Source: Streptantibioticus rubrisoli (lineage in GTDB: Bacteria > Actinomycetota > Actinomycetes > Streptomycetales > Streptomycetaceae). Taken from it: DNA of 64,000 bases. The notes beneath the pieces are model-generated. The model searched no databases. It was not told the DNA's origin and saw only the letters and a program-made list of their open reading frames with translations. Both the position numbers and the translations under genes were made by a program. Of the stretch, positions 33,807 through 50,348 are shown one piece after another (the stretch's first letter is position 1; each line of letters starts with the position of its first letter). The DNA lies in the NCBI RefSeq assembly GCF_024436055.1, contig NZ_JANFNH010000033.1:1-64000 (forward strand), written 5' to 3'.

Positions 33807-34232
33807 TCATCCGCGCTGGTCAACGGAGTGCAGGGAGCTTCGGTCGCCGTCTACCAAACCGGCCCGAAGGTGGTCTGGCCACGGCGCTGGGCGGCCATTC
33901 CCGTCGATGTGCACCACCGTGTGCCTGCCGCTGACACACGTCTGTCCATCGCTGATGACCGTCCAGCCGAAGGTGACACTACTGGTTCCCACGCGTTCGA
34001 CGCCGATACGCAACTCGAACCGCTGACCGAATCGCAGTGGCCGGTGATACTCGGCCTCCGTTGAGCGCCGGGGATAGGAGCCCACCTCACTGGGCTGCCA
34101 GCCGAGCGTATGGAGGAACGCGTGCTCGGCGGCCTCTGCCCAGCGGAATATCACCGACCAGTGGATACGCCCACTGGCGTCCGTGTCCGCCCAGGCCACC
34201 CGCATATGCTCAACGTGCGCTGGCGCAACCAT
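33807..34232 (-). CDS. Acyl-CoA/ACP thioesterase, 4HBT (YbgC/FadM-like) hotdog
   Basis: 141 residues from ATG 34232 (a TTG at 34250 is possible). The active-site motif ADTDASGRIHWSVIFRWAEAAEHAFL (spread over residues ~14-39) has the catalytic Asp of the 4-hydroxybenzoyl-CoA thioesterase family, and YHRPLRFGQRFELRIGVERVG follows. It is the last gene of the leftward cluster, 68 nt after fabG, and a natural candidate for releasing or editing the acyl chain. Confidence 0.83.
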   Translation of the reverse strand: MVAPAHVEHMRVAWADTDASGRIHWSVIFRWAEAAEHAFLHTLGWQPSEVGSYPRRSTEAEYHRPLRFGQRFELRIGVERVGTSSVTFGWTVISDGQTCVSGRHTVVHIDGNGRPAPWPDHLRAGLVDGDRSSLHSVDQRG

Positions 34233-34299
34233 TGATCGCCGTCCAATCAATCACAGGGCGTGGACGCACAGGTCCGACGCGCGTCATTCCGGGTTCTCA

Positions 34300-35046
34300 T
34301 CAGAGCGAAAAGCCACCATCGATTCCCAGGACCTGACCGGTTATGTAGGCGGAACGGCTGGAAACAAGAAAGGAGACGAGATCGGCGACCTCGTCCGGCG
34401 TTCCAGGCCGACGAAGCGGGATCCTTGCGACCTGTTCTTTACGCTTCTCTTCGCTGAGACCGTCGGTCATGTCCGTCGTTATCATGCCAGGCGCTATGCA
34501 GTTGGCCCGTACGCCGAACCGGCCGAGTTCCTTCGCGATCGACTTGGTGAACCCGATGATCCCGGCCTTCGACGCCGCATAGTTCGACTGGCCGATGTTG
34601 CCGTAGATGCCCGCTACCGAGGAGATGGTGACGATGGTTCCGTTGTCGTGTCGCATGAGTGATCGCGCCGCGGCACGGCAGATGTGGTAGGTGCCGTCGA
34701 GATTTGTGCGGATGACCGTTTCCCACTCGTCATCGGCCATCCCGGCAAGCGGCCGGTCACGCACGACCCCGGCGTTGGCCACCACCGCCCCCAGTGGGCC
34801 AAGTTCGCCCTCTGTCTCGGCTACGAGTTCTTCGGCCTGGCCCGCGACCGAGATATCGGTCCTGCGGACGAGCACCCGAGCTCCGGCGCGGCGTGCCTCG
34901 GCCGCGACTTCGTCGGCCTTCTCCGGGCTGGACCGGTAACAGAACGCCACGTCGAAGCCATCGGCCGCCAGGCGGAGCACGGCGGCCCGTCCGATGCCGC
35001 GCGATCCGCCGGTCACGACCGCGACGGGCCTGTCTCCGCTGGCCAT
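34300..35046 (-). CDS. 3-oxoacyl-ACP reductase, FabG type SDR
   Basis: 248 residues. NADPH motif VVTGGSRGIGRAAVLRLAADG, NAGVVRD and the catalytic set Ser (TISSVAG), Tyr-Lys (SNYAASKAG) and Asn are intact; the C-terminus GQVLGIDGGFSL is typical. It should reduce beta-keto groups made by the two ketosynthase pairs. Its ATG overlaps the stop of the collapsed ACP ORF (TGATG), so translation may depend on read-through from that relic. Confidence 0.92.
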   Translation of the reverse strand: MASGDRPVAVVTGGSRGIGRAAVLRLAADGFDVAFCYRSSPEKADEVAAEARRAGARVLVRRTDISVAGQAEELVAETEGELGPLGAVVANAGVVRDRPLAGMADDEWETVIRTNLDGTYHICRAAARSLMRHDNGTIVTISSVAGIYGNIGQSNYAASKAGIIGFTKSIAKELGRFGVRANCIAPGMITTDMTDGLSEEKRKEQVARIPLRRPGTPDEVADLVSFLVSSRSAYITGQVLGIDGGFSL

Positions 35047-35117
35047 CAGGACGCCTCGACCTTGGCGGAGACGATGTGGTGGATGGTCGTCAGTGAGATG
35101 AGCGACGTGCCTGACAC
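35046..35117 (-). pseudogene. Collapsed acyl carrier protein gene, head and tail only
   Basis: A 23-codon ORF starting GTG TCA GGC after the RBS AAAGGAGAGCCGCAC. The same RBS and VSG start belong to the intact ACP at 36515-36775. After three codons it jumps to SLTTIHHIVSAKVEA, which mirrors the ACP C-terminus SLATIHRIVSAKVET. The ~60 central codons with the phosphopantetheine Ser are lost, in frame. It is evidently a duplicated ACP that suffered an internal deletion. Its remaining role may be only to bring ribosomes to fabG. Confidence 0.8.
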
Positions 35118-35156
35118 GGTGCGGCTCTCCTTTCGATCTCGGCTCTCGATCTCGGC

Positions 35157-35966
35157 TCAGACGACGAGTGCTTCTCCGCCGTCAACTCCGATGACGTTTC
35201 CGGTGAGCCATGACGAGTCGGTGCAGGACAAGGCGACGATCGCTTCGGCCACGTCTTCGGTACGCGTCAGCCGGCCGCCTGGATTGATGTCCCGGCAATG
35301 GGCGATCAACTTCTCGCTGCCCGGGATCTTCTGCAGCGCCGGGGTGACCGTGGTGCCGGCCCTGATCGCGTTCACCGCCACCCCCCGGGGGGCGAGTTCC
35401 ACCGCCAGGTCGCGGACATGGGCCTCAAGCGTCGCCTTCGCCGCTGACACGGGCGCGTAGCCGGACAGCACCCGCGTCCCGCCAGCGCTGGTCATGGCGA
35501 AGATCTTCGCCCCTCGCGGCACCAACTCCGCCCGCACCAGGTCCTGGATCCAGTACACGAGGCTGTGCCCCATGACGTCGACCGTCATCGTGAGCTGCTT
35601 CGGCGTGACCCCCGGGACCTCCGCCTCCTGCCCGTCCTGCGTCGGCAGGAGGGACGTCAGCGTCCCGTAGGCGACCGAGTGCAGGATGACCCGGGGCCCG
35701 ACGCCGGACGTAAGGTCGCCGATGACGGGGACGAGCTCCGCGCGAGACTGTTTTGCCGCGACGTTGAGGTTGAAAAAATGTGCCTCAACGCCGAGCTCAC
35801 CCAGTGTCTTGGCGTATTGCTCCGCCTGCTGCCGGCCTTCGGCCAGGTCGAAGTGCACGCCAATGATGTTGCAGCCCGCTTCGGCCAGCGCCCGCGCGGT
35901 CGCTTTGCCCATGCCGCTGGAGACGCCGAATATCAAAGCCCAGGATCCCTTGAGGGGAACGAACAT
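35157..35966 (-). CDS. Enoyl-ACP reductase-like SDR (FabI/FabL type)
   Basis: 269 residues. It starts WALIFGVSSGMGKATARAL and has the Y-x6-K catalytic spacing of enoyl reductases (SGYAPVSAAKATLE) rather than Y-x3-K. It also has HSVAYGTL upstream and a FabI-like C-terminus (VAEAIVALSCTDSSWLTGNVIGVDGG). It would saturate enoyl intermediates, so the product chain is probably at least partly reduced. ATG 35966 overlaps the stop of the LLM relic by one base. The gap to the collapsed ACP is ~40 nt. Confidence 0.87.
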   Translation of the reverse strand: MFVPLKGSWALIFGVSSGMGKATARALAEAGCNIIGVHFDLAEGRQQAEQYAKTLGELGVEAHFFNLNVAAKQSRAELVPVIGDLTSGVGPRVILHSVAYGTLTSLLPTQDGQEAEVPGVTPKQLTMTVDVMGHSLVYWIQDLVRAELVPRGAKIFAMTSAGGTRVLSGYAPVSAAKATLEAHVRDLAVELAPRGVAVNAIRAGTTVTPALQKIPGSEKLIAHCRDINPGGRLTRTEDVAEAIVALSCTDSSWLTGNVIGVDGGEALVV

Positions 35967-36426
35967 CAGTTTCCTCCCTGCTGATCGGTGCCGAGATGGT
36001 CATTGAGGGCTCTGAGCTCGGTGAGCACGTCCAGCGCCGACTCCGGGCCGGCCCCAGGCTCCGGGATGACGCACAAGGTGGTGAAAACGTCGCTGTAGCG
36101 GCGGTGGATCTCCCGGGCGGCCTGCGCGGGGCTGCCCGAGACCGCGAACGCGGCGAACACCTCGTCGTCGATGAGCTCGCCCATCTCCCTCCAGCGGCCC
36201 CGTAGCGACAGGGCGTGCAGATCGTCCTGCAAGGGGTGCGGGCGAAGGCGATCGCCACGCCGGAGCCGAGCTCTATGCGGGAGGTGGAGTCGGCCGCCCG
36301 GGCCAGTTGGAGGAACGGGTTCCCCGTCGTTTCCGCCATCGTCAACTGGTCGATGCCGCGCTCCTCGGCTTCGGCGGCGATGCGGACGCCCTGGGAATCC
36401 GCGGGGCAGCTGAGGCTGAGCTTCAT
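35966..36426 (-). pseudogene. Broken LLM-class F420-dependent oxidoreductase: head and out-of-frame tail
   Basis: From ATG 36426 the frame gives MKLSLSCPADSQGVRIAAEA, then LTMAETTGNPFLQLARAAD and GVAIAFARTP, the first ~65 residues of a luciferase-like F420 enzyme. At ~36235 homology jumps to the C-terminal ~85 residues (LQDDLHALSLRGRWREMGEL, DDEVFAAFAVSGSP, RRYSDVFTTLCVI), now in another frame. Around 170-190 residues with most of the barrel are missing. The tail frame ends with the TGA touching the enoyl reductase start. No active enzyme can result. Confidence 0.8.
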
Positions 36427-36514: not shown

Positions 36515-36775
36515 TCAGGCTGTCTCGACCTTGGCGGAGACAATGCGGTGGATCGTCGCCAGTGAGGTGAGTGAGGTGATTTCTCCTTCGTCGATTTTTA
36601 TTCGGTATTTCTTCTCGAGTTGCACGGCGACTTCCATCGCGGTGAGCGAGTCCACGGCGAGGTCGTTTTTGAGGTCGGCTTCGTCGGTTATTTCTTCGAC
36701 CGGGAGTTCGAGTTCTTCGGCGATCAGCGCACGCAGCTCTTCGAGGTCGACGCCAGCTGTCTGGTTGCCTGACAC
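36515..36775 (-). CDS. Acyl carrier protein (ACP 1)
   Basis: 86 residues. The phosphopantetheine Ser lies in KNDLAVDSLTAMEVAVQLEKK, preceded by DLEELRALIAEELELPVEEI. It is acidic and four-helical as expected. GTG 36775 is chosen because AAAGGAG lies at proper spacing, while an upstream frame to 36835 has none. It lies 25 nt after the second KS-like gene and most likely carries the growing chain for the KS pairs. It is the parental type of the collapsed ACP at 35046-35117. Confidence 0.93.
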   Translation of the reverse strand: MSGNQTAGVDLEELRALIAEELELPVEEITDEADLKNDLAVDSLTAMEVAVQLEKKYRIKIDEGEITSLTSLATIHRIVSAKVETA

Positions 36776-36800: not shown

Positions 36801-37790
36801 TCAGACGGCGAGTGCTTCTTCGCCGTCAACTCCAATGGCAGTGCGTGGCACGACGGTCAGCTCGGCGAACGCGAGCGTGCCCTGGGCGGAGGCTGCCAGT
36901 ACCGCCCGCCGGGTGGGGGCCGTGTGTTGCTGCGCGAACAGGCCCATGACGCGCTGCAGCGGGGCGAGGCAGCCGGCCTGCGCCGGGGCCGGGACGATGA
37001 CGACCTCGCGCTTGTCGGCCAGGCGGTCCAGCCACCGGGCGGCGGCCGTTCCCACCGCGGAGTCGTCCAGCACAGCGTCGATCCGGCCCGGCGGGTCGTC
37101 GCCCACCAGCGGGCCCAGGACAGCGGCGGCGTCGCCCGCCGCGTCGGGAGCCAGGAACGCGCCGCGTACCCCGCACGTGCCATAGCGCGCGTTTCCCTCC
37201 ACGGCGGGCTCGCAGTGGAGCACGGCGGCGCCCGCCTCCGATCCGGGGCCAGTCGACTGGGAAGGTGACAGCGCTTCCTCGACCGCGCCCACGAGGACCG
37301 CCCGGGCCCGGCCCGCGGCGACGGCGCGGGCCGCTATCCGCAGCGCCTCAAGACCAGCGGTAAACGGGGAGTTGACGGTGAGATTGAATCCGGTAATACC
37401 GTGTTCCATCGATAGCCGGCTGGCGAACGAGCTCATGGCTATGAACGGGCTGCTGGACGGCGACAACTCCTCGGCGCCTTCTCGCATGATCGTGTAGTCC
37501 AGCTCCTCCAGCAGCGCGGCGCCGGTGTTGTTGATGGCCACCGCCGCAGCCCGGTGGTTCCGCTCGGTCTTCGAAAACCGGTCCCCGGCGTCGCTGACCG
37601 CCAGTCTCGACGCCGCCAGGAGGTACTTACACGCGTCGGGCAGCCGCCGGTAGCCGCGTCCGGGCAGTGCGACCTCCGCCCGGAACCAGCCGGGAGCCGC
37701 CTCCCCGAGGGGTGCCAGCGCGCCCTCGGGCCCGGAGATACCCGGCGCCACAATCCCCATGCCGACGACGGCCAGCTCACCAGTGCTCAC
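36801..37790 (-). CDS. Ketosynthase-like partner lacking the catalytic Cys (chain-length-factor-like, CLF 2)
   Basis: 329 residues, ~70 shorter than a normal ketosynthase. Thiolase-fold segments are recognisable: LAVVGMGIVAPG, ACKYLLAASRLAVSDAGD, FIAMSSFASRLSMEHGITG and NSPFTAGLEALRIAARAVAAGRA. Where active enzymes have TACAS-like Cys, this protein reads NLTVNSPFTAG, so it cannot form an acyl-thioester. The C-terminal His motifs are degenerate. It overlaps the active KS gene by 4 nt (GTGA) and should form the beta subunit of a KS heterodimer. Confidence 0.78.
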   Translation of the reverse strand: MSTGELAVVGMGIVAPGISGPEGALAPLGEAAPGWFRAEVALPGRGYRRLPDACKYLLAASRLAVSDAGDRFSKTERNHRAAAVAINNTGAALLEELDYTIMREGAEELSPSSSPFIAMSSFASRLSMEHGITGFNLTVNSPFTAGLEALRIAARAVAAGRARAVLVGAVEEALSPSQSTGPGSEAGAAVLHCEPAVEGNARYGTCGVRGAFLAPDAAGDAAAVLGPLVGDDPPGRIDAVLDDSAVGTAAARWLDRLADKREVVIVPAPAQAGCLAPLQRVMGLFAQQHTAPTRRAVLAASAQGTLAFAELTVVPRTAIGVDGEEALAV

Positions 37791-38998
37791 CGTGACCACT
37801 TTGAACCTTCCCCGGCGACGTCCTTCACGACGAAAGAGGTGTTGTTCCCGCCGAACGCGTAGGTGTTGACCAGGACCGCGGGCCCGTCCAACAGCACGGG
37901 ACCCTCCTGCGGAAGCCAGACGCCGCACTCCGGGTCCTGATCGATCGGGGAGTTCGCCGGGACCTTCCGGTGGCGCAGCATGAGCGTCGCCGTAAGACAG
38001 GCGAACGCGCCTGCCGCACCGGTGGTGTGACCGATCATCGCCTTCAGCGAGAAGAGCGGCAGCTCACGTATCCGTTCGCCGAACATTCTGCGCAGAGCCT
38101 GGCTTTCCACCACGTCGTTGAGCGGCGTTCCCGTCCCATGTGGAATGACGCAGCCCACATCGGAGCTGCTCAGCTTCGCGTCGGCCAGCGCGGCGGTCAT
38201 CGCGCGGACGATCTGGTCACCCGACGGATCGGGGGCCGTCGGATGGTGGGCGTCACAACTCCAGGCCGCACCAGCCAACTCGGCGTACGGCTCGGCGCCG
38301 CGCCGCCGGGCGTGATCGTCCGCTTCGAGCACGATCATGGCCGAGCCATCGCCGAACATCGTTCCCGCCCGGTTCCGGTCGAACGGTCGGCAGCGCACCG
38401 GATCCGCGGCTCCCAGCCGGTTGAACGCACCCATCCCGGCCCGTGTGATCCCCTCGGCCCCGCCGACCAGCACCGTGGTCGCCTCACCGGCACGGATCAT
38501 GTCCAACGCGATCGTGAGCGCGTAGCCACTGGCCGAGCAGGCGTTTCCCACACTTGTCAGCGCCGCCCGCGAGCCGATTCCCGCTCCCACGACAGCGGCT
38601 GCGGGCGTCAGCGTCGTCCATGCCGTCCGTCCAGAGCTGCGCTGGATCTCCTGCATGTCCGCGTTGCCCAGCTCCGCCCCGAGCACCACGGGAATCGCGT
38701 CGCACGCCCCGTACTCCAAGCCCGCGTCGGTGAGTGCCTGTTCGGCCGCGGCGACCGCCAGGCGCGGGCTGCTGCCCAGCTCCACCCCGGCGTAGTGGGA
38801 GGGTTGGGCGGGGATCTCCGCCCGGTCGACCAGATACATCTTCTTCGTCCGCATGTTGAGATGTGGCAGCGGGACCTCAGCCGGTTGCCCGCCGCCCGCG
38901 AGCAGTCCATCCCAGTACGCGGTGACACCGGTGCCCAGGCAGGAGATCGCCCCCAGACCGGTGATCACGACCCGCCGGTCGCCGTTGGACGTGTTCAT
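37787..38998 (-). CDS. Beta-ketoacyl-ACP synthase II-like ketosynthase (KS 2)
   Basis: 403 residues with the full Cys-His-His set: SVGNACSASGYAL (nucleophile Cys), VIPHGTGTPLND (His) and KAMIGHTTGAAGAF (Lys, His), plus NTYAFGGNNTSFVV at the end. It catalyses decarboxylative condensation on ACP-bound chains. It lies in an overlap-coupled run: ATGA with the preceding KS-like gene and GTGA with the following one. It pairs naturally with CLF 2. Confidence 0.92.
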   Translation of the reverse strand: MNTSNGDRRVVITGLGAISCLGTGVTAYWDGLLAGGGQPAEVPLPHLNMRTKKMYLVDRAEIPAQPSHYAGVELGSSPRLAVAAAEQALTDAGLEYGACDAIPVVLGAELGNADMQEIQRSSGRTAWTTLTPAAAVVGAGIGSRAALTSVGNACSASGYALTIALDMIRAGEATTVLVGGAEGITRAGMGAFNRLGAADPVRCRPFDRNRAGTMFGDGSAMIVLEADDHARRRGAEPYAELAGAAWSCDAHHPTAPDPSGDQIVRAMTAALADAKLSSSDVGCVIPHGTGTPLNDVVESQALRRMFGERIRELPLFSLKAMIGHTTGAAGAFACLTATLMLRHRKVPANSPIDQDPECGVWLPQEGPVLLDGPAVLVNTYAFGGNNTSFVVKDVAGEGSKWSR

Positions 38999-39858
38999 AT
39001 GTCCCTCCCCCGAGGGGGCGTGAGTACCAGCGCCGCGACCGATGTCCCGTCACTCTCCCCGGAACCGCCGCCCGCGACGGCGAGCACCGCCTCGTTCCCA
39101 AGTCGCTCCACGGCCATCGCGCACTGCACCACACCCAGTGCGCCCGAGCACCGCCCGAACCGTGCGGTCGGCTCGCCGTCCAGTCGCCGCCGGACCGCCG
39201 TGCCACCCGCCGCCTGGACGGCGGACCGTTCGTCGGCTGCTTTGCCGTATCCGGCGATCTCCGCGCGGATCCGCGCACCGCGACTCACGGCGTGCTGCAC
39301 GGGCTCGATCACCAAGCCCACGGCCCCGTCGATCCATCTGGTACCAGCGGTCTCTTTGTGCAGTCTGGCCACCGAAGGGGTATCCGGTTCCACTCCGATC
39401 ACCAGCGCCGCCGTGGCCCGGCCCGCCGCGATCAGGTTCCGTGCCGCGGCCACGGCGTCCAGCCCGCTCGAAGTGCCGTTGCACAGCGTCAGATTCGGGC
39501 CGTGTATGCCGTGCTCGATGGCGACCCAGGCCGCTGAGACGGCGCTCGACAGGTGCGGTACGCGCATCGGGCTGACATCCCTGCTGCAACCGGCAGCGAT
39601 CGTCGAGACGGAGTCGCATACCGGGTCCAGGTTGCCGAAGTTGCTGGAGACGACCACCGCCGCACCGTCGAGTTCCGGCGCGCCCAGTAACCCGGCGTCC
39701 TCAAGTGCTCGGTGCGCCACCCGCACCGCGAACCGCGACGACCGGTCCTTGTGACGCATCCCCCGCCCGGCCAGCGCGGTCGCCGGGTCGAAATCGGGTC
39801 CCGCCACCGCCCAGGCCACACCGGTGATCGCGGTCCGCATGGCAGCCGAAGTGCTCAT
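38995..39858 (-). CDS. Short ketosynthase-like protein without catalytic Cys (CLF 1)
   Basis: 287 residues, equivalent to the N-terminal thiolase half plus part of the rest. RFAVRVAHRALEDAGLLGA, VVVSSNFGNLDPV and GPNLTLCNGTSSGLDAVAAA are recognisable. The usual TAC-S-SG nucleophile position reads NGT-SSG, and the one Cys nearby is shifted by three residues. No His pair is seen. It overlaps both neighbours by 4 nt (ATGA). Probably a non-catalytic partner of KS 1. Confidence 0.72.
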   Translation of the reverse strand: MSTSAAMRTAITGVAWAVAGPDFDPATALAGRGMRHKDRSSRFAVRVAHRALEDAGLLGAPELDGAAVVVSSNFGNLDPVCDSVSTIAAGCSRDVSPMRVPHLSSAVSAAWVAIEHGIHGPNLTLCNGTSSGLDAVAAARNLIAAGRATAALVIGVEPDTPSVARLHKETAGTRWIDGAVGLVIEPVQHAVSRGARIRAEIAGYGKAADERSAVQAAGGTAVRRRLDGEPTARFGRCSGALGVVQCAMAVERLGNEAVLAVAGGGSGESDGTSVAALVLTPPRGRDI

Positions 39859-40994
39859 CGCGCGGCCCCTTCCACGATCGCCACGGCGTTGATCCCGCCC
39901 ATACCGACGGCGTGAACCTGCGCGGTGGCGAACGGCCCGGTGGCCGACTGACCGGATACGATCCGCAGCTCCCCCACTTCCTCGATCGGGTCGGTGAGAT
40001 CGCTGACCGGGGGCAACGTCCGGGAACGGATCGCCTCAAGAGCCACGACGAGGTTGAGGAGCCCGGCCCCACCGGAAATATGGCCCATGCCGCCTTTGAT
40101 ACCGGTGACGAGCGGGCCGGGATCGGTGGCTTTGAACGCTTCTTTCAGCGCGACCGCTTCGGCCAGGTCACTTTGGTGCGTGCCACTTCCGTGCACGATC
40201 ACCAAGTCGATGTCGTCAGGAGCGACCGATGCGCGGTCGTGGGCCTCCTCGATCGCCCGCGCGATACCAGCGGGATCCGGTGCCGTCGGATGCGACGCGT
40301 CGCAGTTCATGCTCACACCCCGGACCCGGCCGTGTATCCGGCCGGGGTGCGTACCGGCTCGCCGCAGCACCACCGCCACCGCGCCCTCGCCCATGATCAT
40401 GCCGCGACGGGACCGGTCGAACGCGCGGATCGTGTCCGGCGGCGGGAACTGGATCCGGTCGAACCCACCGAACGAGCTCTCGGTGATCGAGTCGGTGCCT
40501 GCCACCACCACGGTGTCCGCTTCTCCGAGGTCGATCAGGTCAGTGGCCATCCCGAGCCCGTACAGCGAAGCCGCGCAGGCGCTGGTGATGGTGTGCACGT
40601 TGTGCAGGCCGAAGGCGGAGTGCAGAGCCGAGGTGAAGTGGAGATCGGCGGGAGACAGGCGGCCATCGTGCTGCCACCAGAGTTCGGCGGTCCTCATCTC
40701 CCGGTGCGTGGTCCCGACCAGTACCGGCAGCCCGGGCTCTGGTTCCGGCAGGCCCGCGTCGGTCAGGGCCTCCCGGACAACGCGGACGAGCCAGCGTGTC
40801 GCCCGGAGGGGTTCATCCACACCAGGTCGCACCCGGTCCGGCACCTCATACGCCGCCGCCGCGCGGTACTTGGACGCGTCGAACCTCGAGAGCGGTGCCA
40901 GGCCCGACTGTCCGGAACACAACGCGCGGTGGATACCGGTGACGGTGTCCCCCAGTGCGCATACCGCGCTCATCCCGACGATCTCCCAGCTCAT
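39855..40994 (-). CDS. Beta-ketoacyl-ACP synthase (KS 1)
   Basis: 379 residues. Nucleophile in TITSACAASLYGLG, His in IVHGSGTHQSD and Lys/His in GIKGGMGHISGGAG complete the ketosynthase site; it ends with a typical VHAVGMGGINAVAIVE. It belongs to the KAS I/II superfamily and is diverged from KS 2, suggesting different substrates, e.g. starter versus extension. It overlaps the ligase gene before and the CLF 1 gene after by 4 nt each. Confidence 0.92.
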   Translation of the reverse strand: MSWEIVGMSAVCALGDTVTGIHRALCSGQSGLAPLSRFDASKYRAAAAYEVPDRVRPGVDEPLRATRWLVRVVREALTDAGLPEPEPGLPVLVGTTHREMRTAELWWQHDGRLSPADLHFTSALHSAFGLHNVHTITSACAASLYGLGMATDLIDLGEADTVVVAGTDSITESSFGGFDRIQFPPPDTIRAFDRSRRGMIMGEGAVAVVLRRAGTHPGRIHGRVRGVSMNCDASHPTAPDPAGIARAIEEAHDRASVAPDDIDLVIVHGSGTHQSDLAEAVALKEAFKATDPGPLVTGIKGGMGHISGGAGLLNLVVALEAIRSRTLPPVSDLTDPIEEVGELRIVSGQSATGPFATAQVHAVGMGGINAVAIVEGAAR

Positions 40995-42559: not shown

Positions 42560-42795
42560 GGCACCCGCGGCCGGTCGCGAAGCAGCCGCATCACGTCACC
42601 GACACTGTCCATCTTCGCGGCATCCGCCGGGGTGAACTCCTCGCCGCAGGTACGCTCCAGCGCCACGATGAATTCCGCTTTATGGAGCGAATCCATCCCG
42701 AGTTCCTCATAAAATGACGTGTCGATACCGACATCGGCAACGTCGACCTCCAGGACGCCTGCTACCAGCTCCTGCACATCCCGGTCGGTTAACAC
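42556..42795 (-). CDS. Carrier protein (ACP/PCP-like, ACP 2) with TTA as second codon
   Basis: 79 residues: DVQELVAGVLEVDVADVGID, then SFYEELGMDSLHKAEFIVALE with the phosphopantetheine Ser, and a short C-terminal helix. The start is GTG 42795 (AGAGGA upstream) and the next codon is TTA (42790-42792), so its translation, and that of the overlap-coupled genes behind it, should need the bldA leucyl-tRNA. It probably accepts the aryl starter from the ligase encoded next. Confidence 0.88.
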   Translation of the reverse strand: MLTDRDVQELVAGVLEVDVADVGIDTSFYEELGMDSLHKAEFIVALERTCGEEFTPADAAKMDSVGDVMRLLRDRPRVP

Positions 42796-42875: not shown

Positions 42876-43355
42876 TCATTTTTTGACTTTTCTTATCGCT
42901 TCGGTGACGAGCGACTCACTTGTCACCTTTCCGCCTTGCAGCAGCGAGACACGCACATCGGCGGAGCGCTCATTCATCGTGTCGAGCTTGGCTTCGGCGC
43001 ACACGTCTCCAGGACGCGTCACCGCCAGATATTTAACGTCCAGCCGGGTCGTGGCGAACATCATGTCGTCCTCCAGGAGGCTGTACATGACGAACCCGGC
43101 GGCCTGGTCGTGAATGCTGGAGACATGGCCGCCGAAGGCCACATTCGGTTCCACACAGAGATCATCGGGAATATGAAAGTTGACCACGACGGCCCCGGCT
43201 CGCCATTTCATCGCGACGACCTGGAGTGACAGGCGCGCCACGAAGGCCGGAATCGGGATGGTGCCAGCGGCTATCTGGTCGAGCATCTTCTGCCGCATCG
43301 TCATGGCACCTGATCGAGAGGATCCGTCCACGGGTGCTCCCACCTTCGCTGTCAT
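42876..43355 (-). CDS. PaaI-like hotdog thioesterase
   Basis: 159 residues (ATG 43355, AAGGA just upstream; an internal ATG gives a shorter form). The segment VAFGGHVSSIHDQAAGFVMYSLL, with a Gly-His...Asp arrangement, followed by TTRLDVKYLAVTRPGDV is typical of PaaI/DUF4442-type acyl-CoA thioesterases. It lies 10 nt after the exporter gene in the cluster and ~80 nt before ACP 2. Likely editing or release of acyl/aryl thioesters. Confidence 0.78.
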   Translation of the reverse strand: MTAKVGAPVDGSSRSGAMTMRQKMLDQIAAGTIPIPAFVARLSLQVVAMKWRAGAVVVNFHIPDDLCVEPNVAFGGHVSSIHDQAAGFVMYSLLEDDMMFATTRLDVKYLAVTRPGDVCAEAKLDTMNERSADVRVSLLQGGKVTSESLVTEAIRKVKK

Positions 43356-43365
43356 GCCTTCCTTG

Positions 43366-44841
43366 TCATGAAGCCGGACTGTCCCGGTCGGCGCGGTTGC
43401 GGCGCGCGATGAGCCAGACGAGCGCGGATGCCAGCACGAAAGCCGTCACCACCACGACCAGCCCGAGCATCATGTCGATCCGCAGTGCCGGATAGCGCAA
43501 GGCCGTCAGGTCTCCACGAAAGTCCCTGAAGAAGGCCAGTCCGATCACGGCCACGCCCAGCGATGATCCGAGCTGCTGCGCTGTGGAAAGCACCCCGGAG
43601 ACCGCCCCGGAATCGTCGTTCCGAACACGAGCCAGCACGAAGTTCAACAACGGACCGAGTACCAGGCCCAGACCCAGGCCGGTGAACACCATTGTTGGTG
43701 CCATCACCCATCCGAAATTCCGCCCCGAGCTGTTCCAGTCGATAGCGGCGATCATGCACGCACTGCCGACGGCGCACACGACACAGCCGGCGAGAATGGT
43801 GCGGGGCGCATTGAATCGTGACACGATGCGCGCCGACCACAAGGAAGTGATCGTGCTTCCCACCGCGTACGGCGCCATCGCCACGGCCGTCGCGAGCGCG
43901 CCGTAACCAAGGCCGTACTGAATAGTGATGGAGAAGTAGAGGAAAAAGGGCACTACCGCGGAGAAGTACACCAGGTACAGGGCCAGGGCCAACCGGAAAG
44001 CCGGATCGGTCCACAGACCCGGCCGTAGCAACGGAAACCTGCCCTGCCGTTCCAGCGCTGACTCAAGCCAGAGAAAGACGGCCAGCAGCACAGGCGTGCA
44101 CATGAGCAGCAGCCATCCCCACAACGGCCAGCCCTGATCACGGCCGATCGTGAGCGGCACCAAGAGCGCGACCAGCAGCAGGACGACGGTGAGCGAGCCC
44201 GCGTAGTCCAGCCGCAGGCGCAGTCCCTTTTGCGCTGGCACCATACGGGGTGCCAACGCCACCAGAACGACACCGACGGGGACGTTGATCAGGAAGATCG
44301 GGCGCCACTGCAACCCGGCGACATTCGCCGCGATGAGCAGCCCGGCGATGATCGGGCCTGCGATCGTGGCGCCGCTCACCACCGCTCCGAGCAGCGCGAA
44401 CGCGCGCCCTCGCCGTTCCGCGGAAACCGCGATGTGCAACGTCGCGATGACCTGCGGATACAGCACAGACGCCGAGAGGCCCTGCCACACCCGACTGGCG
44501 ATGAGCTCCCCCGGACTCTGCGCCAGGCCGCAGGCGAGGCTCGCCAGGGTGAAGGACGCGGCGCCGATCATGAACATGCGCCGCCTGCCGTACAGGTCCC
44601 CCAGCCGTCCACCGGTGATGAGTATCACCGCGTAAGCGACCACATAGCCCGCGACCACCAGCTGCACGTCCGGCACGCTGGCCCCGAGACCTCGCTGAAG
44701 GCTCGGGATCGCGACGTTCACGATCGAGGTGTCGGCGAGCAGCATGAAGGCGGCGCCGAGCACGAGCGCCGCGGCCTTTTTCTCCGTCGGCAGGAACCGT
44801 TGGTCGGACACCAGCGCAGGCGGCGCCACTGAGCGGCTCAT
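43366..44841 (-). CDS. MFS exporter, DHA2 (14-TM) type, of the biosynthetic cluster
   Basis: 491 residues. LLADTSIVNVAIPSLQRGLG, GGRLGDLYGRRRMFMIG and VVSGATIAGPIIAGLLI are the DHA2 landmarks, with ~14 hydrophobic segments. The ATG at 44841 overlaps the stop of the upstream ligase by 4 nt. Its position inside the operon makes it the probable exporter of, and self-protection against, the cluster product. Confidence 0.9.
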   Translation of the reverse strand: MSRSVAPPALVSDQRFLPTEKKAAALVLGAAFMLLADTSIVNVAIPSLQRGLGASVPDVQLVVAGYVVAYAVILITGGRLGDLYGRRRMFMIGAASFTLASLACGLAQSPGELIASRVWQGLSASVLYPQVIATLHIAVSAERRGRAFALLGAVVSGATIAGPIIAGLLIAANVAGLQWRPIFLINVPVGVVLVALAPRMVPAQKGLRLRLDYAGSLTVVLLLVALLVPLTIGRDQGWPLWGWLLLMCTPVLLAVFLWLESALERQGRFPLLRPGLWTDPAFRLALALYLVYFSAVVPFFLYFSITIQYGLGYGALATAVAMAPYAVGSTITSLWSARIVSRFNAPRTILAGCVVCAVGSACMIAAIDWNSSGRNFGWVMAPTMVFTGLGLGLVLGPLLNFVLARVRNDDSGAVSGVLSTAQQLGSSLGVAVIGLAFFRDFRGDLTALRYPALRIDMMLGLVVVVTAFVLASALVWLIARRNRADRDSPAS

Positions 44842-46373
44842 CCGAGGGCTCCGTGCGTCAGGAGCCGGTTCCGGCGGACCTTCATCGTGCCGGTGAGCGG
44901 AAACTCCTCCCACGGCCGGTAGTCGACCCCGGTGTCTTCCGGCAGCCCGGCTTTGCCGCGGGCGCGCTGCCATCGGTCTTCGTCTATCGGCTTGCCGTCG
45001 ACCGTGGCCGCCACCGCCCTGACCGTCCCGTCCATGGCGATGATCACGACCTCGGCCAGTTCCGGCAGTTCGTCGAGCAGGATGTCCTCGGCGCGCAGGG
45101 TGCTGGGCACGCCGGGGACCTGGTCCACTCGCCGGTCATACAGCTCCAGGTGCCCGTCGGCGCGGAGCATGCCGATGTCGGCCATGGGCCACCAGGTGTC
45201 ACGGCCGGGTAGCGGTGCACGGCCGATCATCGATTCGGCCCGGGCGGGGGTGCGTACTTCGATGTTCCCGGGTGTGTCGGCCGGAAGCTCCGATCCGGCG
45301 TGATCCACGATGCGGATCTCCATGCCGGGGAGCGGCGCGCCCACATCACGGGAGTTCAGCCGCCCCGGCTCCCGGATCTCGGAACGGGTGGTCACCAGCA
45401 GTGTCACCGGGCCGGTCTCGGTCTGCCCGTACGCCTGGATGAATGTCGGGTTCGGATGGTCCGATGCCTCAAGAAGTGTCCGCAGCGTCCGAGGGTGAAT
45501 CGCGTCGAAACTGCTGACATAGCGCTTTACCGAGCTGAACGGATTCGGCGTCTCGCGCGCCAGCGCTTCCCAGCGCAGGAACATGTTGGGCTGAGCTTCC
45601 AGAGTCTCCGGCCGGTACCGCAGGAGTGCCTGGCGCACAGAGGTCAGGTCGGGGGAGGTGATACTGAGGAACGGCACTCCTGTATTGAGCACCGTGAGCA
45701 GCCCGGACGCCATCCGTACATGCACGAAGGACAGGCACTTCGCGCTGATCCCGGCGTAGTTGAGCGATTGCACCACGCCCATCTGGGGGGCTACGTGGGC
45801 GTACAGGGAATCCACCGTGTGCACGAGGAGCTTGGGTTTCCCGGTGGTGCCGGAGGAATGCGTGATGAGGGTCGGGTCCGTGCCGGGACGGCGGGTGACC
45901 TGGTGGGTTGCCGACTCGCTGAGCTCGACCGCTCCGGCCAGTGCGGCTTCGGGCGTGAGCGTGAGGACGCGGGAGACGATCTCGCCCAGTCGGTCCTGCC
46001 AGGGACGCAGGACCGCGGCGCCCTCGGCATCGGTCAGGAAATAGGGCTGCTGGAGTTCCTTGAGGCAGTACAGGAGATCGGCCGGATCCATTTTCACCGA
46101 CAACAGCGCGGGCAGCGCACCGATGCGAACAACGGCGCACTGGATCGCCTGGATATCCAAGTGATTGGATTTGACCACGGCGACCACAGCGCCCGGCCGC
46201 ACCCCGGCACCCCACAACCGGTCGGCATAGTCCGCGACCACGGCCGCGAAGTCGCTCACCGTGTTCGGTGTGCGGCAGGCCGAGGCCCATGACGTGTCCG
46301 CACGCAGGGTGGTCTCACCATGGTGTTCAGCGGCACTTTCCGGCAGTAAGCCAAGATCTGCGATAGGGGGCAC
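44838..46373 (-). CDS. ANL-superfamily acyl/aryl-CoA ligase
   Basis: 511 residues from GTG 46373, preceded by AGAGGA; an ATG at 46400 would overlap the upstream gene by 14 nt. A3 THSSGTTGKPKLL, A5 AYGQTETGPVTLL and the A10-like FPLTGTMKVRRNRLLTHG are present. The A8 region (DRRVDQVPGVPSTLRAEDIL) is atypical. A TTA codon is at 46347-46349. Directly behind the aryl-CoA monooxygenase gene, it could make that enzyme's CoA substrate. Specificity unknown. Confidence 0.85.
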   Translation of the reverse strand: MPPIADLGLLPESAAEHHGETTLRADTSWASACRTPNTVSDFAAVVADYADRLWGAGVRPGAVVAVVKSNHLDIQAIQCAVVRIGALPALLSVKMDPADLLYCLKELQQPYFLTDAEGAAVLRPWQDRLGEIVSRVLTLTPEAALAGAVELSESATHQVTRRPGTDPTLITHSSGTTGKPKLLVHTVDSLYAHVAPQMGVVQSLNYAGISAKCLSFVHVRMASGLLTVLNTGVPFLSITSPDLTSVRQALLRYRPETLEAQPNMFLRWEALARETPNPFSSVKRYVSSFDAIHPRTLRTLLEASDHPNPTFIQAYGQTETGPVTLLVTTRSEIREPGRLNSRDVGAPLPGMEIRIVDHAGSELPADTPGNIEVRTPARAESMIGRAPLPGRDTWWPMADIGMLRADGHLELYDRRVDQVPGVPSTLRAEDILLDELPELAEVVIIAMDGTVRAVAATVDGKPIDEDRWQRARGKAGLPEDTGVDYRPWEEFPLTGTMKVRRNRLLTHGALG

Positions 46374-46386
46374 GGCATCCTCTCCG

Positions 46387-48459
46387 TTATGACCACTCAT
46401 TCGAGGCGGAACGATCCGGTGTCCCGCGCATGGAAAACCAGGGCGAGTCCACCGTCGGCTGGTCGACGACGCACAGGTCCGCACGCCCGGCCAGGACGAT
46501 CACGTTGACGTCGGATGCGGAGATCGATCCCGCCGCTATCACAGCGATCTCGTTCTCGCGCCCGACCTGGTTCCGGATCCGGTCCGCGTACACGTCCCGG
46601 TCGGTCGGCGTCCCGGCACAGACGTGCACCGCCGTCGCGCCGCGCGCGGCGAACTCGTTCGCGATCTCGGCCGCCGCATCGATACCGTCCCTGCCCGGGT
46701 CCCACTGCGCCGGTGAGATGCGCAGGCTGACCGGCCGCTCGGCCGGCCACACAGCGCGGATCGCGCCGAACACCTCAAGCGGGTAGCAGAGCCGGTCCCG
46801 CAGCGAGCCGCTGCTCCCACCCCGCTCGTCGGCAGACGGGGGCAGAAACGAGGAGAGCCAACTGCCGTACGCGCAGTCCAGTTCCAGCAGGTCGAACCCG
46901 GCGGCGGCGCGCCGGGCCGCGGCGGCGAACTCGCGTTGCAACTCGCCAAGGGACTTGGTGGAGCCGTCAGGGCCGTAGTAGCCGAGTTGCACGCCGATCT
47001 TCGCCAGCGAATTCGCGTGGACGAAATCCACAACCCGCCGCCATCCGGCCGTCTGTTCCCCGGTATACAGTCCGGCACCGCCGGGGGTAGCCGTGCCCGT
47101 AGCGGAGACGGACACCGGCCCGGTCATCACCAGCCCGGCCTCTCCCGGTGCCTCCTCGCCCCGGTACACCAGTTGGAGGTCATCCGGCACACCGTCGCGG
47201 GTGTGGAGCACCTCGCCAGGGGAGACCACGACGCGGTTGACCAGGTCCAGACGGCCGAGGGCGAACGGCTGGAGCATCGGTGGGCTCACCTGGCCGCCCG
47301 CCGAGCCTGCGAACCACCGCTCCGCCCGGGCGATGAACTCGGGGTCGCGTCGGCGCAGGCTGGCGTAGGAAACCCGGCGGCTGCGGGTCAGGAGGTTCAC
47401 CGCGAACTGCTGCGGATCCTGGTGGGTGTACTGGTCGATGTTCTCGAACCACTCCCGGCTGGCCTGCGCGGCGCGCTGGAGGGACAGGACCGCCGGGCGG
47501 CGCCCAGCCTCGTACGCGGCCAGTGCCGCTCTCGCGCTCGGCTGCTCGTGCAGGCTGTTGGCCAGGGTTGACGCGTCGTCCATCGCGAGCTTGGTGCCCG
47601 AGCCGATGGAGAAGTGCGCCGTATGCGCCGCGTCGCCGATCAGCACGACGTTTCGATGCCGCCAGGTCTCGCACCGCACCGTGGGAAAGCGCAGCCAGCG
47701 CGAGTTGTTCCGGTACAGCTTGTGCCCGTCCAAGATGTCCTTGCACAGCTCGGCGATGATTCCTATCGACCGTTCGTCGCTTTCCCCCGGCGCGAGCTGT
47801 GAAGTGGCGGCATCAGCGAACCCGGCCGCGCGCCAGGCGCTTTCGGACAACTCCAGTATCAGAGTGCTGGCATGACGGGAGTTCGGGTAGGCGTGCACCT
47901 GTATGGCCCCGCCCGGTGTGTCCACCACGTAGAACTTGAACGAGTCGAGTTGCAGGTCGGTGCCCAGCCAGATGTACCGGCATTTCCCGTTCTGCACCGT
48001 GGGCCGGAAGGTCTTCGCGTACCGCTCCCGGATCAGGGAGTTCGCCCCGTCAGCGGCCACCACGAGGTCATGGTCAGCGGCGACGGCATCCACATCGGTG
48101 ATCTCGCTTCCATAGCGCACCTGAACGCCGAGTTGAGCGCAGCGCCGCTGCAGGGTCGTGAGCAGGCCAGCGCGGCTCATCGCGGCGAACCCGTTCCCGC
48201 GGGCCGTGAACGTGGTGCCACGGTAGTGCACATCGATGGCGTCCCACCGGGCGAGTATCGGCCGCATCTCGGACACGACGGCCGGATCAGCGCGCTCAAT
48301 CCCGCCCAGCGCCTGGTCGGACAGCACCACTCCGAACCCGAACGTCTCATCGGGTGCGTTCCGCTCCCAGACGGTGATCTCATCCGCGGGGCCAAGTTGA
48401 CGGGCTAACACACTGAAGTACAGCCCGCCGGGACCACCACCGATCACAGCGATGCGCAC
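46387..48459 (-). CDS. FAD monooxygenase-OYE fusion, anthraniloyl-CoA/salicylyl-CoA hydroxylase type
   Basis: 690 residues, GTG start with GGGAGG upstream. The N-terminal ~390 residues are a flavin monooxygenase: IAVIGGGPGGLYFSVLARQ, FGFGVVLSDQALGGIE, VVAADGANSLIR and VVLIGDAAHTAHFSIGSGTK. The C-terminal ~290 residues are an old-yellow-enzyme barrel (LGRLDLVNRVVVSP, GLVMTGPVSVSATG, RRVVDFVHANSLAKIGVQLG, PVSLRISPAQWDPGRDG). This fusion is known in 2-aminobenzoyl-CoA monooxygenase/reductase and salicylyl-CoA 5-hydroxylase. Oddly, the OYE active-site region reads LDCAYGSW where relatives have HCAHGY-like paired His, and GYYGPDGST replaces GHAGRKGST, so the reductase half may be dead or altered. 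A TTA codon is at 48406-48408. Confidence 0.87.
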   Translation of the reverse strand: MRIAVIGGGPGGLYFSVLARQLGPADEITVWERNAPDETFGFGVVLSDQALGGIERADPAVVSEMRPILARWDAIDVHYRGTTFTARGNGFAAMSRAGLLTTLQRRCAQLGVQVRYGSEITDVDAVAADHDLVVAADGANSLIRERYAKTFRPTVQNGKCRYIWLGTDLQLDSFKFYVVDTPGGAIQVHAYPNSRHASTLILELSESAWRAAGFADAATSQLAPGESDERSIGIIAELCKDILDGHKLYRNNSRWLRFPTVRCETWRHRNVVLIGDAAHTAHFSIGSGTKLAMDDASTLANSLHEQPSARAALAAYEAGRRPAVLSLQRAAQASREWFENIDQYTHQDPQQFAVNLLTRSRRVSYASLRRRDPEFIARAERWFAGSAGGQVSPPMLQPFALGRLDLVNRVVVSPGEVLHTRDGVPDDLQLVYRGEEAPGEAGLVMTGPVSVSATGTATPGGAGLYTGEQTAGWRRVVDFVHANSLAKIGVQLGYYGPDGSTKSLGELQREFAAAARRAAAGFDLLELDCAYGSWLSSFLPPSADERGGSSGSLRDRLCYPLEVFGAIRAVWPAERPVSLRISPAQWDPGRDGIDAAAEIANEFAARGATAVHVCAGTPTDRDVYADRIRNQVGRENEIAVIAAGSISASDVNVIVLAGRADLCVVDQPTVDSPWFSMRGTPDRSASNEWS

Positions 48460-48590
48460 CTCGACCTCCCGTGCACCGGGCGCCCCTGCGGACTTTCCTC
48501 ACCGCACCGGCGCTGTGCGCCCGGCGAACGCCCAAGGAACGGCCGGAGGCGTGCGGATGGATCGTCCTGGATATGCGACGGCGAGTTCAT

Positions 48591-50348
48591 CTACGCTCCG
48601 CGGACCGGAGACGAGGCGGCCGACGACGCCAGAATGTCCTCGATCATCTGTGGCGGGACGGTGGCATCATCGAACCAGCGGCCGCCGAGCGGCCGGGGAA
48701 CCGGCATGATCTGGTCGTTCGTATAGGCCAGGACCTTGCGGTTGTAGTTACGGATCTCGTCCCGGAGGTCGGCCGGCAGCTTCTTGTCGAGTCGCAGCGC
48801 GCTTTCCATTTCCCCGAGCAGCGCCCGTGTCTCGTCAATGGTTTTGAGAACGGCCTTGCAGAACCCGGCCGGGAGCACCCCGTACTCGCCCTTGATCTCC
48901 ACCAGGCGAGTGATCGCCTCGTAGGAGACGTCCTGAAGCTGGCGCCTGTCCAGCCAGCGCGTATCGTAGTTAAGCCGCCGGTACCACAGTGGCTCGACCA
49001 TGGCCTGGCGGTGTTCTTCCAGCGTGCGGTGGTGGATACGGTAGCCGTGTTTCTCCGGTTCTTCGAAGAACTGGGACCCCGGGTCGAGGAACGGCACCAT
49101 CGGGCAAATGAGCGGAAGGGCGGCCCACCCTCCGAACTTGCGTATGAGTCGCTCGCAGTACGCGATCGTATCCATCACCGATTGCCGGTCCTGGTACGGC
49201 ATACCGATGAAGAACCAGATCATGATGCCTTTCACGCCGTAATCCAGGGCGCGCGGAATCCATTCCTCCATCTGCTCCATGGTGTAGTTCCCGCGACCGG
49301 CCGCCTTGCTTATTTTCAGGTCGTGGGACTCCGGGGAGAGCATGATATAGGAATCTGTTGACTCGCCCATCTTCTTGAGGATGTCGGGCGGCGTCAGACT
49401 GAACTGCTCGAAGTGGACGCTCTTGTATCCGAGCTCTTTCACGGCATCCAGATACTGGTGCATCCGCGTTCTGTTCTCGGAATAACATTGAAGCGCGTAT
49501 ATCGAGGTGCGCTTCGCTGCCTCTCGCATGGTGCGGAGCTCTTCGACAACGAGGTCGTTGTCCTTCTGTACCAGAGTCTTGCGGACGCCCATGATGTTGC
49601 GGTAGGCGAACCGTGACCCGCCGCACCAGCCACAGTCATGCGCGCACCCGGTGTTGGGCAAGGTCATGATGAGCTTGGACGCTGACGGCCCTCCGTCGGC
49701 CACCTCGCGGTAATACGACCAGTCGTTGCGCACATTGTTGTAGTTGCTGTCCGGCGTGTGCGAGAAGCCGGTGGATTGGACCTCTCCATCGACCTTGTAC
49801 AGCAGATTAGGGATGGAACGAAAGTCCCTGTTGCCTTGCTTGACCCTGGCGACCAGCTCCGTGACCGGGTCGAGGGTGTCGTAACCCTGAACGACGACAT
49901 CGACACTCGGGTACTCAATCAGCTGCTTCGCATAGTAGGTCGCCGAGATGCCACCGAAGATGGTGAGCGCTTCGGGGTGCACTTCCTTCACGAGGGCCGC
50001 GAGTTCGACCGAGCCGTGACAGTGCGCCATCCAATGGAGGTCGAACCCGAAGATCGGCGCCTCGAAGCGGGCGAGTAATCGCCTGACATCTATTTCGGGA
50101 TGCATGAGCATCAACGAGGCGACATTCACGATCTTCGTGTCGAACCCGCAGTCGGCCAGCCGCTGCTTTATCGAGAACCAGCCAATTGGATAAATCTCAT
50201 AGACCGATGTGACATTGACACTGTCGCTGTCGCTCAGATAGGCGAACAGCATGTCGTCGCGCTCGCGGAAGTCGTATACGCTGGGCGCGTGTAATAAGAA
50301 GAGATCGGCCTCAAGTCGCGACACTGACGACTGATCCGTTATAGTCAT
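48591..50348 (-). CDS. Cobalamin-binding-domain radical SAM protein
   Basis: 585 residues; ATG 50348 follows GGGAGGG. An N-terminal B12-binding-like Rossmann domain (~15-200) contains FGFDLHWMAHCHGS (DxHxx(G)-like) and LTIFGGISATYYA. The radical SAM core has the CxxxCxxC cluster motif at Cys 235, 239 and 242 (GCAHDCGWCGG). It resembles B12-dependent radical SAM enzymes, which methylate unactivated carbons or do other radical steps. Codons 18-19 are consecutive TTAs (50292-50297), making it strongly bldA-dependent. It is the first gene of the leftward cluster, 131 nt before the next start. Confidence 0.88.
   Translation of the reverse strand: MTITDQSSVSRLEADLFLLHAPSVYDFRERDDMLFAYLSDSDSVNVTSVYEIYPIGWFSIKQRLADCGFDTKIVNVASLMLMHPEIDVRRLLARFEAPIFGFDLHWMAHCHGSVELAALVKEVHPEALTIFGGISATYYAKQLIEYPSVDVVVQGYDTLDPVTELVARVKQGNRDFRSIPNLLYKVDGEVQSTGFSHTPDSNYNNVRNDWSYYREVADGGPSASKLIMTLPNTGCAHDCGWCGGSRFAYRNIMGVRKTLVQKDNDLVVEELRTMREAAKRTSIYALQCYSENRTRMHQYLDAVKELGYKSVHFEQFSLTPPDILKKMGESTDSYIMLSPESHDLKISKAAGRGNYTMEQMEEWIPRALDYGVKGIMIWFFIGMPYQDRQSVMDTIAYCERLIRKFGGWAALPLICPMVPFLDPGSQFFEEPEKHGYRIHHRTLEEHRQAMVEPLWYRRLNYDTRWLDRRQLQDVSYEAITRLVEIKGEYGVLPAGFCKAVLKTIDETRALLGEMESALRLDKKLPADLRDEIRNYNRKVLAYTNDQIMPVPRPLGGRWFDDATVPPQMIEDILASSAASSPVRGA

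Follow-up and report, generated by a model that had tools for sequence, protein, structure and literature searches.

The 64,000-nucleotide stretch of the Streptantibioticus rubrisoli genome analysed here (contig NZ_JANFNH010000033.1, positions 1 to 64,000; hereafter the window) carries between positions 33807 and 50348 a biosynthetic gene cluster that on balance probably makes a reduced aryl polyketide from anthranilate, by the route proposed below. The cluster is rare yet conserved and is uncharacterised in the literature, no paper on this gene set having been found in a search limited to open-licence PMC papers. Its gene content and conservation, the intact catalytic triads of its ketosynthases (KS), the loss of Old Yellow Enzyme (OYE) features from one of its proteins and the presence of an anthranilate synthase in three of seven sister clusters are directly established. 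Fifteen genes and one gene relic, all on the minus strand, were defined from the open reading frame (ORF) list and from Pfam and NCBIfam profile matches. They are given below in their order from 50348 down to 33807; the eight clusters referred to are that of the window and those of the seven sister loci.

48591..50348, minus strand: rSAM, B12-binding radical S-adenosylmethionine (SAM) protein, predicted C-methyltransferase (PF02310 and PF04055; TIGR04190, 396 bits, cut-off 500; CxxxCxxC in 8/8 clusters)
46387..48459, minus strand: MOX, FAD-dependent aryl-CoA hydroxylase with a degenerate OYE-like domain at residues ~386-690 (NF006101, 789 bits, cut-off 1078)
44838..46400, minus strand: ANL1, adenylate-forming ligase (ANL enzyme), weakly matching and similar to long-chain ligases, overlapping the end of MOX, candidate anthranilate-CoA ligase (PF00501; PRK06187, 123 bits)
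43366..44841, minus strand: MFS exporter (PF07690, 150 bits)
42876..43355, minus strand: 4HBT1, hotdog thioesterase-family protein (PF03061; no NCBIfam match)
42556..42795, minus strand: ACP1, acyl carrier protein (ACP), putative starter carrier (PF00550; four-base overlap with ANL2)
40991..42559, minus strand: ANL2, benzoate-CoA-ligase-family protein, putative aryl-ACP ligase (TIGR02262, 285 bits, cut-off 375)
39855..40994, minus strand: KSA, ketosynthase with Cys140/His268/His305 (PF00109/PF02801; nearest solved chain 6kxd_A)
38995..39858, minus strand: CLFA, KS-like partner, active-site Cys replaced by Thr/Ala/Val (PF00109 only; alignment)
37787..38998, minus strand: KSB, second ketosynthase with full Cys-His-His (PF00109/PF02801; alignment)
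36801..37799, minus strand: CLFB, second KS-like partner, active-site Cys replaced by Phe/Val/Leu (PF00109 only; alignment)
36515..36775, minus strand: ACP2, putative extender carrier (PF00550; NCBIfam ACP models)
~35966..36426, minus strand: relic of a luciferase-like (LLM) oxidoreductase gene, N- and C-terminal parts in different frames and the middle gone (intact homologue in L058)
35157..35966, minus strand: ENR, FabI/FabL-like enoyl reductase with Y-x6-K (PF13561; FabL 135 bits, FabI 90 bits, both below cut-off)
34300..35046, minus strand: FabG-type ketoreductase with Y-x3-K (TIGR01830, 288.5 bits, cut-off 297.75; NF009466, 254 bits, cut-off 222)
33807..34250, minus strand: 4HBT2, FadM/YbgC-like hotdog thioesterase-family protein (PF13279; in 3/7 sister clusters)

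The profile matches recover every part named by the first-pass annotation, which had listed two ANL ligases, the fusion enzyme, two ketosynthases with KS-like partners, two carriers, FabG, a FabI-like reductase, two hotdog proteins, an exporter and a B12 radical SAM protein on one strand. That list includes neither the relic nor the thyA-DHFR pair described below. Five gene pairs (ANL1/MFS, ACP1/ANL2, ANL2/KSA, KSA/CLFA and CLFA/KSB) overlap by four bases with the starts listed above, as expected for a single operon; the starts of ANL1, MFS and CLFB were picked by eye and the start codon of 4HBT2 is uncertain. Both carrier proteins hold the DSL motif. The LLM gene is intact in the Streptomyces typhae cluster (L058 14680-15717; PF00296, 199 bits) and finds no match in the other sister loci compared, the stretch of L056 ending before that place; the relic may represent an accessory step under loss.

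The sister clusters come from a collection of one genome per species (84,980 species) that was scanned with an alignment of KSA relatives. From the 183 relatives obtained, the 80 best loci were taken forward. Seven of these loci (L055-L061) carry the cluster, in the genomes of Streptomyces aureocirculatus, S. xiaopingdaonensis (L056), S. alboflavus, S. typhae (L058), S. beigongshangae, Actinomadura livida (L060) and S. flavofungini. The order from rSAM to CLFB is that of the window in all seven, with FabG next wherever it is visible, and such repetition shows that the cluster is not a chance arrangement. The order of ENR and ACP2 is reversed relative to the window in five of the six loci that show both genes (L055, L057, L058, L060, L061) and window-like in L059. 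The L056 cluster stops at a contig edge past CLFB, so that ENR and ACP2 were not seen there, and its FabG lies on a second contig. The 11 proteins from rSAM to CLFB are present in 7/7 fetched loci, ENR, ACP2 and FabG in 6/7, and 4HBT2 in 3/7. Identities of the 14 core proteins between the window and single sisters range from 68 to 94%. Of the genes that all seven show, rSAM is on average the closest to its window counterpart (mean identity 91.6%) and MOX the most distant (76.3%). In a tree of KSA from the window and 79 of the 80 loci (one locus was removed by the length, identity or stop filter), rooted on window KSB as outgroup, the eight clusters form one clade with support 100/100. Its sister is a three-row group of Embleya hyalina, Yinghuangia seranimata and Nonomuraea jabiensis (support 100/99), in whose fetched stretches no rSAM or MOX match was found. 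The cluster boundaries drawn in the first-pass annotation also hold, because among 59 flanking ORFs tested against the seven sister loci the sole match is dihydrofolate reductase (DHFR); the thymidylate synthase gene thyA lies beyond those loci.

MOX has the domain order of the catabolic fusions of family NF006101 (2-aminobenzoyl-CoA monooxygenase/reductase, salicylyl-CoA 5-hydroxylase), from which it differs by a degenerate OYE half, a score below the family cut-off and a biosynthetic setting. Such catabolic fusions are widespread: at E <= 1e-130 a match occurs in 330 of the 382 genomes sampled from the order (own genome included), and the S. rubrisoli genome codes for a second MOX-type fusion that is 54% identical to MOX over residues 2-505. 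The catabolic enzyme hydroxylates its substrate at C5 and yields a 2-amino-5-oxocyclohexene thioester. The window protein had first been read as an intact aryl-CoA monooxygenase/OYE fusion. Alignment of the eight cluster proteins with five catabolic homologues (the L050 row, translated in a wrong reading frame, was left out of the counts) corrects this reading: the FAD half is retained and the OYE half is degenerate in all eight clusters. In the FAD half, whose mean identity to the five catabolic homologues is 58%, 127 of 183 catabolic-invariant columns are retained in all eight clusters and 23 are lost in all eight; the corresponding numbers for the OYE half are 65 retained and 75 lost out of 209. 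The catabolic motif HCAHGYLL reads DCAYGSWL in window MOX. The first His of HCAH is replaced by Asp in 8/8 clusters, the second is retained in four (L055-L058), and the remainder of the motif drifts. All eight proteins lack the amino-terminal SPMDMYS element of the OYE half and share a 39-column deletion (~40 residues) in it, and the Arg of the carboxyl-terminal GR/AR element is lost in five, being kept in L057, L059 and L060. Window MOX has lost both His residues and the Arg. These elements presumably bind substrate and FMN in OYEs. The ratio dN/dS (Nei-Gojobori with Jukes-Cantor) is 0.30 for the FAD half and 0.55 for the OYE half over 28 cluster pairs, and the relation is reversed over 10 catabolic pairs (0.47 and 0.33, respectively). 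The window domain scores 121 bits against the solved OYE 5ocs, compared to 311 bits for a catabolic control. By these features the FAD monooxygenase half qualifies as such and an intact OYE half is not found. The reductase half of MOX is very likely inactive, judging from its sequence, and the enzyme would now be a hydroxylase, predicted to hydroxylate the ring without dearomatising it. Structure predictions for MOX and rSAM are poor, with mean pLDDT of 38 (8-row alignment) and 41 (7-row alignment), respectively.

The synthase genes code for two KS/CLF pairs. KSA and KSB have a complete Cys-His-His triad in 8/8 clusters and the active-site Cys of CLFA and CLFB is replaced in 8/8. The best solved match of KSB is 9s5h_B, and that of KSA is chain A of 6kxd, which we take to be the KS-CLF of ishigamide synthesis, a highly reducing type II polyketide synthase (PKS); we know of no aryl loading or anthranilate in the ishigamide system. 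Discrete KS with a Cys-less KS-like partner in every cluster, discrete ACP and a ketoreductase, which are features of highly reducing type II PKS, are found here. ANL2 matches best the benzoate-CoA ligase family TIGR02262, below its cut-off; among solved structures benzoate-CoA ligases come closest to it, with the anthranilate-CoA ligase 4wv3 next. There is good support for a reducing type II synthase primed with an aryl unit, and the doubled KS/CLF together with the enoyl reductase suggests a longer or more saturated chain.

The closest characterised logic is that of two highly reducing type II PKS systems, encoded by ava for avenalumic acid and by cma for p-coumaric acid. In these systems, according to the consulted part of PMC10777205, 3-amino-4-hydroxybenzoate (3,4-AHBA) is attached to a starter ACP by an aryl-ACP ligase, malonyl units are thought to be borne by a second ACP, and KS/CLF, a reductase and a fatty-acid dehydratase (the latter proposed for cma) yield an aryl alkene. 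The earlier proposal that an aryl starter is loaded on a carrier and extended by reducing type II machinery agrees with this experimental logic; the elements shared with these systems are the aryl-acid ACP ligase, two ACPs, KS/CLF and FabG (ava only) acting on an aryl starter. The ava/cma starter is 3,4-AHBA, with AvaH/AvaI and a diazotase, whereas none of the 3,4-AHBA genes is found among the Pfam matches of the window cluster. The window cluster further differs by its doubled KS/CLF, its enoyl reductase and aryl-CoA hydroxylase, and its B12 radical SAM protein. The 3,4-AHBA synthase family PF01959 is absent from the L060 genome (the S. rubrisoli genome was not searched) and is found, at whatever distance from the locus, in one of 12 genomes with core-type loci, that of L130. 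ANL1 does not qualify as an AvaA6-type diazotase, reaching 64 bits with that model (cut-off 975), below the generic ligase models.

The nature of the aryl unit is indicated by the sister clusters. An anthranilate-synthase fusion of 725-772 residues is encoded between FabG and 4HBT2 in L058, L059 and L060, the same three that have 4HBT2. The L059 protein, the only one scored, reaches 929 bits with TIGR01815 (cut-off 739) and 1028 bits with PRK13566 (cut-off 645); the L058 and L060 fusions are 82 and 78% identical to it. A remnant (50% identity over 88 residues) is found in the S. xiaopingdaonensis cluster and a homologue with 50% identity in the Embleya sister-clade locus. Among the fetched stretches of the best 80 of 183 loci, 15 have anthranilate-synthase matches, five of them at 50% identity or above and the rest at ~30-35%. 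The S. rubrisoli genome has a 57% identical homologue on another contig. Relatives of anthranilate synthase can be 2-amino-2-deoxyisochorismate synthases, as stated in the consulted part of PMC5958127. The aryl unit is most likely anthranilate. Tomaymycin was considered as a precedent for anthranilate hydroxylation and set aside, since Lim7/Lim8, the counterparts of TomE/TomF, are thought in the consulted part of the source to act on the carrier-bound acid, a different route.

The third unusual component, rSAM, scores highest with TIGR04190 out of seven models and has no match in the PDB. It is itself rare: matches occur in 4 of 391 genomes of the order at E 1e-40, and in 1 of 394 of the class and 4 of 392 genomes of genus g10 (by inference Streptomyces) at E 1e-30, the samples overlapping and the own genome being counted among the matches for order and class. 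Homologues 75-76% identical to rSAM are encoded in three g10 genomes (G116, G191, G276). In G191 the homologue is preceded by genes for a KSIII-like protein, an acyl-CoA-dehydrogenase-like protein and a fused adenylation-carrier protein, and followed by genes for a polyprenyl-diphosphate-synthase-like protein and DXP synthase. The best models of the dehydrogenase-like protein are the L-prolyl-carrier dehydrogenases RedW (396.5 bits, cut-off 650) and PigA (396.6 bits, cut-off 500). These five neighbour genes are kept in G116 and G276 with 82-91% identity, and the three genomes' loci (L028-L033) possibly direct the synthesis of methylpyrrole-bearing terpenoids; phenalinolactone was a suspected example, for which no paper turned up among open-licence PMC papers. 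The G191-type set as a whole presumably resembles the cloN genes for 5-methylpyrrole. CloN6 is described as the pyrrole methylating enzyme, and the roles of CloN3/CloN6 are treated, in the consulted parts of PMC8992657 and PMC10849742. Because these 75%-identical relatives sit in prolyl-carrier/pyrrole gene sets, the setting of CloN6, the likeliest role of rSAM is by analogy to methylate a ring carbon of an aromatic acid bound to a carrier or to CoA. The likeness to CloN6/CouN6 of clorobiocin and coumermycin is one of gene context alone, through the nearest non-cluster relatives; unlike that setting, the cluster shows no pyrrole gene and none for proline activation.

We infer all enzymatic steps, their order and the product as follows. 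ANL1 would convert anthranilate to anthraniloyl-CoA, which the FAD half of MOX would hydroxylate, probably at C5, the ring staying aromatic if the OYE half is dead. 4HBT1 would release hydroxyanthranilate and ANL2 would put the aryl acid onto ACP1, where rSAM may C-methylate the carrier-bound ring. KSA/CLFA and KSB/CLFB would then elongate the starter with malonyl-ACP2, and the chain would be reduced by FabG, a dehydratase borrowed from fatty-acid synthesis and ENR. Either a hotdog thioesterase or the attacking ortho amine could release the product, which the MFS protein would export. Seven strains carry the cluster, so that the product can be sought directly. It is an orphan conserved cluster that joins a catabolic domain very likely disabled, an unusual predicted methylase and a hint at the target (see the thyA-DHFR pair below).

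Several observations weigh against this route from anthranilate. No dehydratase (FabA/FabZ/MaoC match) is found in the cluster, both hotdog genes belonging to 4HBT by Pfam. The window cluster lacks an anthranilate synthase, its FabG-4HBT2 gap being 50 bases, and none was found in the fetched stretches of L055, L057 and L061. ANL1 has no diagnostic family match (the generic PRK06187 is its best NCBIfam model), and the ligase encoded beside the fusion enzyme in two catabolic loci resembles ANL2 (32-34%), not ANL1; for these two reasons ANL1 and ANL2 may have roles other than those proposed. No characterised member of the rSAM family was found, and the 75% identity to enzymes of pyrrole context could mean a pyrrole substrate. 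A partial relative of the cluster in G1025 (L145, C484) pairs rSAM (95% identity) with ACP1, ANL2 and a KSA fragment, and no MOX, ANL1, MFS or 4HBT1 is found in the fetched stretch; decay of the cluster or an artefact of the assembly may explain this locus, which was excluded from the eight. The OYE half of MOX is still somewhat constrained, its dN/dS remaining below 1, which may reflect a structural role. This constraint, the keeping of the OYE-like domain in all eight clusters and the partial retention of the second His (4/8) and of the Arg (3/8) would be explained if MOX still dearomatised its substrate, the starter then being a non-aromatic 2-amino-5-oxocyclohexenyl unit as in catabolism. 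Such an OYE-reduced starter is nevertheless unlikely because of the degeneracy of the OYE half in 8/8 clusters, where the first His, the SPMDMYS element and ~40 residues are gone and the motif drifts; window MOX keeps neither His nor the Arg.

The same low probability applies to salicylate or another hydroxybenzoate as aryl unit. It is suggested by the name of the MOX family model, salicylyl-CoA 5-hydroxylase, and was the second option, beside anthranilate, in the first-pass annotation. The anthranilate half of that proposal gains from the synthase co-located in three of seven sister clusters, which is why anthranilate is preferred, and the salicylate half loses: salicylate and isochorismate synthases belong to the superfamily of the anthranilate synthase used as query, and this query retrieved from the sister clusters nothing but three anthranilate synthases and a remnant, no dedicated salicylate-synthase search being made. 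Equally improbable is a pathway like those of cispentacin and coronafacate, in which ANL2 would load a small aliphatic acid (2-oxoglutarate), KS/CYF would condense and cyclise it, and the aryl-CoA enzymes would build a separate moiety. The cispentacin (amc) system likewise pairs a related KS with a KS-like protein that is not catalytic, and FabI participates in cispentacin synthesis according to the consulted part of PMC10698177. The AmcF model of this pathway, whose starter is non-aromatic, matches both ketosynthases (238 and 188 bits, cut-off 325); the match of CLFA to AmcG is weak (24 bits, cut-off 80), and ACP2 matches AmcB (40 bits, cut-off 80). However, all four scores are under the cut-offs, no aminotransferase is among the Pfam matches of the cluster, the best model of ANL2 is a benzoate-CoA-ligase family and the best solved match of KSA is 6kxd_A. 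The AmcF lead was demoted on the scores and on the aryl type of ANL2.

The end of the cluster abuts two genes of the opposite strand that lie outside its interval:

33245..33751, plus strand: DHFR, abutting the cluster end (PF00186, 162 bits)
32406..33248, plus strand: ThyA thymidylate synthase, four-base overlap with DHFR (PF00303, 414 bits; TIGR03284, 426 bits, cut-off 108)

A thyA-DHFR pair adjoins the cluster in six of the eight genomes (window 32406-33751; L146, L147, L149, L150, L162). Four of them, S. aureocirculatus, S. alboflavus, S. typhae and S. flavofungini, have it at the rSAM end, whereas in the window and S. xiaopingdaonensis it lies at the other end, that of FabG/4HBT2; no ThyA match was found in the other two cluster genomes. 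The search for ThyX was negative in the four genomes, all drafts, that have the pair beside rSAM, and the pair supplies their one strong match to a thymidylate synthase; the remaining four cluster genomes do have ThyX. A strong ThyA match occurs in 19 of 197 sampled genomes of the order including the own one, the other 18 being 11 of genus g10 and seven of g19. The comparison of 6/8 cluster genomes having an adjoining pair with ThyA in 18/196 sampled genomes gives a Fisher p of ~3e-5, relatedness being ignored.

The 11 g10 genomes with thyA are devoid of the cluster. Nine were examined, the weaker-match G074 and G125 being left out: DHFR stands beside thyA in seven (in one of them in two frames), ThyX is missing from five, and the thyA surroundings hold no cluster gene besides generic SDR matches (27-38%). 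In the trees of ThyA (100/100) and DHFR (100/98), the pairs of S. xiaopingdaonensis and G210 are sisters; G210 has no MOX match at E 1e-130, and the genes lying beyond thyA look similar in the two genomes when compared by eye. Either the cluster joined an existing thyA-DHFR pair or it was lost in the G210 lineage. The two pairs at the FabG end are not sisters in either tree, where starred branches force two origins, most forks being weak.

The pair may plausibly serve self-protection or bypass for a product directed at thymidylate or folate. More specifically, and tentatively at best, the product would be an anthranilate-primed, ring-hydroxylated, ring-methylated reduced polyketide that blocks thymidylate synthesis (the flavin enzyme ThyX or folate turnover), with thyA-DHFR as the producer's bypass. 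To our knowledge ThyX is absent from humans. The association thus offers a testable guess at the target, namely thymidylate synthesis and possibly ThyX. Coincidence, the pair being a mobile housekeeping cassette, is an evenly balanced proposition. It fits the occurrence of thyA without the cluster in 11 sampled g10 genomes, mostly with DHFR adjoining and often with ThyX missing, the relationship to the G210 pair, by which the cluster may have reached a pre-existing pair, and the lack of ThyA in two cluster genomes; adjacency in six of eight cluster genomes at opposite ends (four rSAM, two FabG) and the Fisher comparison speak against it.

The window flanks code for a STAND-NTPase-like/HEAT-repeat protein (25217-28027), a helicase-like protein (51353-53455) and a Tn3-type transposase fragment (54893-55459); of the flanking ORFs tested, DHFR alone was matched in the seven sister loci. 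Just past the A. livida cluster, L060 codes on the opposite strand for an extra ANL enzyme (18826-20445) that is 36% identical to ANL2 over its carboxyl-terminal part. The S. humicola core cluster (L016/L088) has a class II DAHP synthase and a chorismate-binding/amidotransferase fusion (166 bits, cut-off 645) that is no clear anthranilate synthase, and perhaps uses an aromatic amine starter of a different kind. The core ANL2-KSA-CLFA-KSB-CLFB-ACP-FabG is shared by the sister-clade clusters L014/L062 (Embleya hyalina), L015/L081 and L073. The best match of the Embleya ANL enzyme is the AvaA6 diazotase model (356 bits, cut-off 975), and that cluster might modify an anthranilate polyketide by diazo or N-N chemistry.

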